DNA of 64,000 nucleotides from Anaerolineae bacterium (lineage in GTDB: Bacteria > Chloroflexota > Anaerolineae > J036 > Brachytrichaceae), in the NCBI GenBank assembly GCA_947476335.1, contig CANJQH010000003.1, forward strand, positions 1-64,000, read 5' to 3'. This document shows, piece by piece, positions 33,860-38,024 of the stretch. Position numbers and translations under genes: made by a program. Numbering within the stretch: position 1 is the first letter of the stretch; every line of letters starts with the position of its first letter. Below the pieces are notes generated by a model. It was not told the origin of the DNA. It saw nothing but the letters and a program-made list of their open reading frames with translations, and searched no databases.

Positions 33860-34402
33860 TTACATGTATCCACGCTGCAACGCCGCTTCGCCGTAACCAG
33901 ATTCGGGCGACGTGTCCGGCACGTCAAAGCCGAGCGTGTCTGCGATGCGCACAATCATGTTGAACGCGCCGCAGATGTGAATCGCCTCTTCGATCTGCGC
34001 ATCGCTCACACCGGCGCGGCGCGCAGCGTTCACATCTTCCGCGACGACGTCGTCAGGCTGAATGGTCAGCCTGTGAATCAGGCCAAGCACCGCACGCAAG
34101 CCCTCGGAAACCGGGGCGGTGCGCCAATCATCGAATACTGCCTGGGTCAGCTCCTCACCGAGGGCTGCGCGCGCCATCGCGCCGTGCGTGCCCGCTCAGA
34201 AGGGACACTTGTTCAAATACGCCGTGTAGCCGGCGAACAGCTCGCGTTCGCCCACGCTCCATGCGCTGTCGCCGCGCAACAGTATCTGCAGCATTTCAGA
34301 ATACGGGCGGCCAAACAACTCCGGCCGGTACGCCAGCGCCTTCACCACGTCAAGCGTGGCGCCAGGCGCCAGCGTATCGCGATCGACTTTCGACAGTCTC
34401 AT
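33860..34402 (-). CDS. AhpD/CMD-like protein, probable selenoprotein (CxxU)
   Basis: Read as one gene this is 180 residues with an in-frame UGA at codon 69 (34196-34198). Before it stands L-N-K-C-P-F, and after it A-G-T-H-G-A-M-A. The motif is therefore C66-P-F-U69-x3-H73, exactly the C-x-x-C-x-x-x-H redox site of AhpD/carboxymuconolactone-decarboxylase-like proteins. Both halves share one frame with no gap, and the part after UGA (I-E-E-A-I-H-I-C-G-A-F-N-M) is family-typical. AhpD-like selenoproteins are known. The RNA after UGA is GC-rich and can fold around GCGC-GAUG-GCGC, but I cannot confirm a SECIS. The alternative is a nonsense-mutated pseudogene. The start overlaps the upstream gene (ATGA). 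Confidence 0.75.
34196..34198 (-). other. in-frame UGA, candidate selenocysteine codon
   Basis: The TGA falls exactly at the second cysteine position of the CxxC motif. Reading frame and family similarity continue on both sides. Confidence 0.75.
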
Positions 34403-34752
34403 TTTTTCTCCTGATCGGCGTTCGTGTTCATCGCCGCCATCCCAGCCTCGATGCGCCGCATACCCGCCCCTGCAGCAACGGTGATGATTGCTTCGTACAC
34501 TGCATCTTCAGCATATCCAGCCTGCAGCAGGCGCTCGACGTCTTCGTCGACGACTTTGTATGCATTGCGGATCGCCTTGTCGACAAACGCCGCCAGCAGC
34601 GCTGGCACATTGGCAAATTCGCCCCCACGCCCAGCGGCGCGGTCGTAGATCGCCGCACGCACCGCGTGCGACAACGCACCCGGCGTGTTCAATACCGATT
34701 CGACGATCGCATCACGATTCGCTGCAAACCGATCTCCAGCATAGGTGGACAT
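34399..34752 (-). CDS. AhpD/CMD-like partner protein without catalytic cysteines
   Basis: 117 residues. The helical pattern resembles the carboxymuconolactone-decarboxylase/AhpD fold (A-F-V-D-K-A-I-R-N-A-Y-K-V-V and Y-E-A-I-I-T-V-A-A-G-A-G), but no CxxC is present. It overlaps the candidate selenoprotein by 4 bp (ATGA), so the two are translationally coupled and may form a heteromeric AhpD-like complex. The start at 34752 (M-S-T-Y-A-G-D) is preferred to an ATG 12 codons earlier that lies in the spacer. No cofactor site is visible. Confidence 0.75.
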   Translation of the reverse strand: MSTYAGDRFAANRDAIVESVLNTPGALSHAVRAAIYDRAAGRGGEFANVPALLAAFVDKAIRNAYKVVDEDVERLLQAGYAEDAVYEAIITVAAGAGMRRIEAGMAAMNTNADQEKK

Positions 34753-34792
34753 TGGAGTTGAAGTGTACTGCAGCAACAGGAAAAACATTCGT

Positions 34793-35078: not shown

Positions 35079-37265
<2,187 letters not shown>

Positions 37266-37307
37266 CGTGGGCACGGATTGTAGGGGCGAGGCAAGCGTCG
37301 CCCCTAC

Positions 37308-37313
37308 TAGAAT
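37308..37313 (+). promoter_or_regulatory. candidate -10 box for the isochorismatase-like gene
   Basis: TAGAAT lies 6 nt before the ATG at 37320. Confidence 0.45.
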
Positions 37314-37319
37314 TGTCAT

Positions 37320-38024
37320 ATGGCCCTTGCAAAAAATTCGCGCCCGTTTTTGAAACACCTCGATCGATGGATGGATGAACGACCAGTGCTTTCATTGCGC
37401 AAGGTGGCGCCTGATGCGACGCGCGCCGCGGTGATGTGCGTCGATATCATCAACGGCTTCTGCACCGTCGGACCGCTCGCCAGCCCGCGCGTGCAGGGTA
37501 TCGTCAAGCCGATCATTTCGCTCTTCAAGGCCGCACACAAACACGGCATCGAAAATTTTGTGCTTATGCAGGACACACACGATCCAGAAGCAATTGAGTT
37601 CGATGCGTACCCGCCGCACTGCGTGCGCGACACCGCCGAAAGCGAAACCGCGCCCGAGCTGCTCAAGCTTCCGTTTGCCGACCGGTTCATCGTGCTGCCG
37701 AAGAATTCAATCTCATCCGCGTACAACACCGGCCTCGATGCCTGGCTCGACGCGCACCCAGACGTGAACACGTTCATCGTCGTCGGCGACTGCACAGACC
37801 TGTGCACGTATCAGCTCGCCATGCATCTGCGCCTGCGCGCAAATGCAGCGCAGCAGAGCGGCGTGCGCGTGATCATCCCGGAGAACTGTGTACAGACGTA
37901 CGACACACCGGTGAAGATCGCAACGAAGCTCGACATCCCAGCGCACGACGGCGACCTGCTGCACGCGATCTTCCTGCACAACATGGCATCGAACGGCATC
38001 GAAGTCGTCGGCAAACTGCGATGA
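37320..38024 (+). CDS. isochorismatase/nicotinamidase-like hydrolase
   Basis: 234 residues. The cysteine-hydrolase triad is visible: Asp in [10 protein letters not shown], Lys in V-L-P-K-N-S-I-S-S, and Cys in [10 protein letters not shown]. This is the pattern of nicotinamidases and isochorismatase-like enzymes. The metal ligands D-x-H are suggested by Q-D-T-H-D-P. Nicotinamidase activity (NAD salvage) is likely but not proven. The stop overlaps the acylphosphatase start by 4 bp (ATGA), so the two are co-transcribed. It is divergent from the subtilase with only 54 bp between start codons. Confidence 0.9.

Follow-up and report, generated by a model that had tools for sequence, protein, structure and literature searches.

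We conclude that a gene on the minus strand of the window, the 64,000-nucleotide stretch of Anaerolineae DNA analyzed here, almost certainly encodes an AhpD-like selenoprotein (33860..34402) into which selenocysteine (Sec) is inserted at codon 69. Together with the gene that overlaps it upstream, it quite likely specifies a two-subunit AhpD-like alkylhydroperoxidase or thiol-disulfide oxidoreductase, in which a Sec-containing catalytic subunit and a catalytically dead paralog would form a heterodimer. For this pair, we infer both the peroxide substrate and the Sec chemistry.

The minus strand from 34402 to 33860 holds one frame of 180 codons that is open except for a single TGA at 34196-34198, which is codon 69. 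An earlier, sequence-only reading had noted that two open reading frames (34402..34196 and 34177..33860, minus strand) share this frame and are separated only by that TGA, and so it proved. Reading TGA as U yields a protein of 180 amino acids (MRLSKVDRDTL...YLNKCPFUAGTHGAMARAAL...GYM) that ends at the stop codon at 33860-33862 and places Sec in the sequence C66-P-F-U69-A-G-T-H73. The AhpD-like identity that had been proposed for this product also held, as evidenced by profile scores above both cut-offs: 89.6 bits for TIGR01926 (AhpD-like, peroxidase-related; curated cut-off, 81.8) and 30.1 bits for PF02627 (CMD; cut-off, 23). Moreover, the read-through protein matched the solved peroxidase-related proteins 6k40 and 2oyo, and its homologs are of matching length. 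Under automatic annotation, this gene would appear as two genes or as a pseudogene, and the upstream partner would go unnamed.

Homologs were sought in 400 genomes of the phylum and in one scan of a named genome (401 genomes in total), which returned sequences up to 56% identical to the window's protein. Across the 48 nucleotides aligned from the Sec codon onward, TGA occupies this codon's column in 22 loci, counting the window's own; a more distant TGA locus (L057) was left out of this alignment. In six related loci, the codon is TGT or TGC. All 23 aligned members have C or U at position 69 and H at position 73. Where carriers of the TGA form are named, they are metagenome-assembled genomes labeled Chloroflexi, Chloroflexales, Planctomycetota, and Actinobacteria. 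Because 22 homologous genes share TGA at one column, the codon is not a chance event, as the sequence-only reading had argued, and the comparison that it had proposed at this position showed all the members examined to have either U or C. A CxxC gene that had suffered a sequencing error or had recently acquired a nonsense mutation would show a TGA here too, and the window's own hairpin, described below, does depart from the family form. Nevertheless, such an accident is very improbable, given that the same-codon TGA recurs in genes from independent genomes, most of them about 40-56% identical, that the frame downstream of it is conserved, and that the genome has a full Sec machinery along with other TGA-containing genes.

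A tree of 39 sequences requires five changes between U and C; the family shows Sec and Cys exchanging at what is most likely the attacking residue. The window gene is part of a deep subfamily (branch support, 100/98). More distant TIGR01926-like genes from the window's family and class also encode CxxU, and the trait is therefore common in this group; these further candidates (L021, L022, L024-L031, L034, and L036-L038) have motifs such as CFYUTESH and CEYUVKHH and no strong partner match, and L024 was reported with two in-frame TGAs. One catalytic-gene copy in another genome (L061, G393:C2) has a TAA near its N terminus besides the Sec TGA and is possibly decaying; that genome has another, intact copy. 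The window's own genome also encodes a Cys-type AhpD-like paralog (CTYCASVH; L032/L096, contig C35) with no partner-gene match in the same genome. Among 27 other genomes of the window's family, no close homolog of the window gene was found (best E value, about 3e-13), and in the tree it is closest to genes from other families of the same phylum; judging from these distributions, inheritance was likely sporadic or involved horizontal transfer.

The machinery for Sec insertion is present. Following a suggestion to look for selA, selB, selC, and selD, profile searches located all four in the same genome: SelA (491.4 bits, on the window's contig), SelB (312.8 bits), SelD (362.8 bits, with one internal TGA), and a tRNA-Sec with a TCA anticodon (71.2 bits). 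SelD is itself a selenoprotein (contig C3:93308-94237), and its TGA falls within the motif CAGUAGK, which we take to be the usual catalytic Sec position of SelD. A peroxiredoxin-type protein (PF00578; L102, contig C47) with an in-frame TGA near 1615 (WFYQMDNTSWUAAQ) is a further selenoprotein candidate by its sequence and might be a lipoprotein. Formate dehydrogenase searches of this genome gave only sub-cut-off matches without TGA, and among the other long frames of the window that are joined by one TGA, a list judged by eye, none was considered to have a plausible redox motif.

This inventory also bears on how the codon is read. The frame is open whatever residue TGA encodes, and a changed genetic code or leaky read-through could in principle place another residue, such as Trp, at position 69. 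However, we regard this as vanishingly unlikely: the genome's tRNA-Trp has a CCA anticodon while its tRNA-Sec has TCA, homologs have Cys and never Trp at the position, and TGA is still a stop codon in this genome because the overlapping partner gene terminates with it. On the basis of codon conservation and tRNA content, we rejected both the pseudogene and the Trp-recoding explanations. The selenoprotein reading is instead supported by the Sec machinery, by U or C at the homologous position, and by a covarying hairpin in the family.

RNAalifold detected one hairpin common to the 22 TGA loci (columns 16-29). Counting its loop-closing pair, 97.7% of cells are paired and 11 are compensatory; none of 500 shuffles equaled the alignment in paired fraction, in compensatory cells, or in covariation score, and the signal collapses when the register is slid. 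The same columns in the Cys loci are 58% paired, which is no better than shuffles. The family loop, N-GU-N', lies 17 nucleotides after the UGA and reads G-GU-C in nine sequences and A-GU-U in 12, and the second Ala/Val codon pair after Sec is found only as GCG-GTC (9) or GCA-GTT (12). At columns 21-24 of alignment A1, the loop-closing pair switches from G-C to A-U with the Ala and Val codons in lock-step. This hairpin agrees, with covariation, with the published bSECIS rule, which asks for G in the first two loop positions and for a loop 16-37 nucleotides after the UGA (PMC13188914). The locus family is a clear example of a SECIS within coding sequence whose loop-closing pair has undergone compensatory change.

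Among the 22 loci, the window alone deviates, with a loop of G-AU-G, because the Val of the family is Met there. Its hairpin in the family register (34162..34193, minus strand) has the loop GAUG (34175-34178) 17 nucleotides after the UGA, degenerate relative to GGUC/AGUU; this copy is weak, with four pairs left in its apical stem and the outer apical ones broken. The stability of the 48-nucleotide fold after the UGA does not exceed that of shuffled sequences (z, -0.34). An alternative SECIS candidate (34148..34167, minus strand) displays a GGU loop (34157-34159) 36 nucleotides after the UGA, and its spacing resembles that of the candidate hairpins in this genome's selD and peroxiredoxin-like genes, which are strong and have G-U loops 32 and 33 nucleotides after the UGA. 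Both window candidates, either of which may serve as the SECIS, fit the rule of PMC13188914, though without excess stability. Rfam returned no matches in the window.

In Mycobacterium tuberculosis AhpD, the catalytic residues are E118, C130, C133, and H137 (PMC3141380), and the window's protein reproduces this E-x11-C-x2-C/U-x3-H spacing with E54, C66, U69, and H73, of which E54 (12 residues before C66), U69, and H73 are invariant in the alignment. It differs in having Sec at the position of C133 and F in place of H132. The sequence-only reading had correctly placed the TGA at the second cysteine of the CxxC motif, but its label for that residue, the resolving cysteine, is probably wrong, since Cys133 of the M. 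tuberculosis enzyme is the exposed attacking residue. In that enzyme, the residue at the base of the cleft that forms the cross-link with AhpC is Cys133, not Cys130 (PMC6626918). In the alignment, position 69 is always C or U, but two Cys members lack C66, which is otherwise kept. On both grounds, Sec69 most likely replaces the attacking residue rather than the resolving one, a conclusion that stays provisional because mutants of Burkholderia thailandensis AhpD weight the two cysteines differently (PMC6626918). The two members that lack the first Cys (L054 and L056, with TEFC) retain the Sec-equivalent Cys, the His, and the partner gene; judging from their sequences, they are possibly single-Cys enzymes.

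The second component of the locus is a coding sequence of 117 amino acids at 34399..34752 (minus strand; ATG at 34752, with a start at 34788 also possible), whose stop codon TGA (34399-34401) overlaps the selenoprotein start as ATGA. The product is AhpD-like but has neither the motif nor any Cys. Profile-profile comparison aligned it with the catalytic family at 96% probability (E, 4e-9), the CxxC segment being absent from the partner, and the earlier suggestion that the overlapping upstream gene encodes a Cys-less paralog was thereby borne out. The window's partner matched nothing in NCBIfam and nothing in Pfam at a meaningful score, and three of 22 partner family members match CMD weakly. 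Its AlphaFold model has a pLDDT of 93.7, and the best PDB matches of that model are TIGR01926 proteins, with TM scores of about 0.65 and weak E values.

The two genes travel together. The partner lies directly upstream of the catalytic gene in close relatives where the sequence allows this to be seen, and when searched independently, it gave 23 strong matches in 19 of the 401 genomes. All 19 of these genomes have the catalytic gene, and none has the partner alone; in five other genomes, the partner is absent and a more distant TIGR01926 relative is all that was found. In 22 of the 23 places, the two genes are neighbors, and the exception comes from a fragmented genome. In one Cys clade (L051, L053, and L065), catalytic protein and partner are fused in one chain, catalytic domain first; because the fused chains form one clade, the fusion was one event. 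Besides the partner, there are no conserved neighbors, and neither ahpC nor any other redox gene adjoins the pair; AhpC-TSA proteins are located elsewhere in the genome. Within the window, the minus strand at 35079-37358 encodes a subtilase-like protein that has a long tract of Thr-Pro repeats toward its C terminus. Its gene ends about 330 bases before the partner gene, and segments of the GCCCCAAACGGCG type recur in the interval.

It might be argued that the selenoprotein is real but works alone, as a homodimer or hexamer, and that the partner is a separate regulator, a chaperone, or a translation-coupling peptide. Other TIGR01926 selenoproteins of the same class do occur in genomes without a strong partner match. 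We nevertheless consider this arrangement unlikely, if deserving of some weight, given the strict co-occurrence and adjacency of the genes, their fusion in the Cys clade, and the homology of the partner to the catalytic subunit. The same co-occurrence, adjacency, and natural fusion lend strong, though indirect, support to the asymmetric complex imagined in the sequence-only reading.

A two-subunit enzyme of this kind could work as follows. UGA69 would be decoded by SelB and Sec-tRNA by means of a hairpin in the following 20-50 nucleotides, placing Sec within C66-x-x-U69-x3-H73 and, with the invariant E54, in the proton-relay geometry of AhpD. Sec69 would attack, and C66 would resolve the selenenic acid as an Se-S bond. 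The partner, having lost the whole CxxC helix-turn-helix, would replace one subunit of the usual dimer, and the product would be a pseudo-symmetric heterodimer like that of Sesn-A and Sesn-C in Sestrin, where the partner may stabilize the assembly or sense a ligand. The pair might instead have no antioxidant role and another activity of the CMD fold, for example as a catabolic dehalogenase or decarboxylase: no neighboring gene fixes the substrate, and the debrominase Bmp8, also of the CMD fold, is among the weaker structure matches. However, the arrangement of the invariant E, C/U, and H is that of the AhpD relay (PMC3141380), and TIGR01926 and its solved members are peroxidase-related, which makes such an activity rather improbable.

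Selenoproteins of this general type are not new. AhpD-like CxxU proteins have been known since 2005 (PMC1088965; see also PMC2398784), and TIGR01926 is listed as a selenoprotein family whose AhpD-like CxxU form is exemplified by MCB9421940.1 (PMC13188914). The window gene resembles these enzymes in its score above the curated cut-off, in having Sec last in CxxU, and in sharing the fold of 2oyo, 6k40, and 2prr; what sets it apart is its deep subfamily, in which the catalytic unit is accompanied by a motif-less partner, either as a gene or as a fused domain. The CxxU region also aligns with NF041238, the AhpD_rel_CFYUT (seleno)protein family, but at 38.6 bits, far below the cut-off of 175, and the length and N-terminal part differ. 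Unlike the AhpC-AhpD system, and M. tuberculosis AhpD in particular, the window's gene has no ahpC beside it, and a separate dead paralog is present. In the limited literature searched, we found neither the motif-less partner nor its fusion nor the parallel with Sestrin.

That parallel is architectural. Human Sestrin2 consists of two AhpD-like halves, the active Sesn-A and the motif-less Sesn-C, and it can be superposed on the dimer formed by 2PRR, a TIGR01926-like protein (PMC4674687). A model of the fused homolog (mean pLDDT, a moderate 79; partner domain, about 43-96) has 2PRR as its best match and matches Sestrin2 over its whole length, with TMq values of 0.68 and 0.62 and rmsds of 13 and 8 Å, respectively; its Sestrin matches have high rmsds (7.7-13 Å). 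In view of the build of Sestrin2, its overlay on 2PRR, and the matches of the fused model to both, the pair probably forms a Sestrin-like, pseudo-symmetric heterodimer in which Sec provides the one active site. Direct homology to, or membership in, the Sestrins was considered and rejected, as an hmmsearch with profiles of this family against PDB chains returned no Sestrin and gave no sequence link. More tentatively, and with some doubt, we propose that the phylum has an asymmetric, Sestrin-like seleno-alkylhydroperoxidase whose dead paralog took on a regulatory or ligand-binding role and was fused to the catalytic unit at least once in a Cys lineage; if true, prokaryotes would offer an independent instance of the Sestrin architecture. 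The pair is also a small, expressible system in which to test the role of a dead AhpD half, a question that underlies Sestrin too. Sestrin2 and this family each combine one catalytic and one motif-less AhpD-like unit, and the fused Cys homologs keep the same order, catalytic and then dead. The window, unlike Sestrin2, divides the units between two genes, and of the dyad, Sesn-A has only the first Cys left, while here it is the second position, that of Sec, that is invariant.
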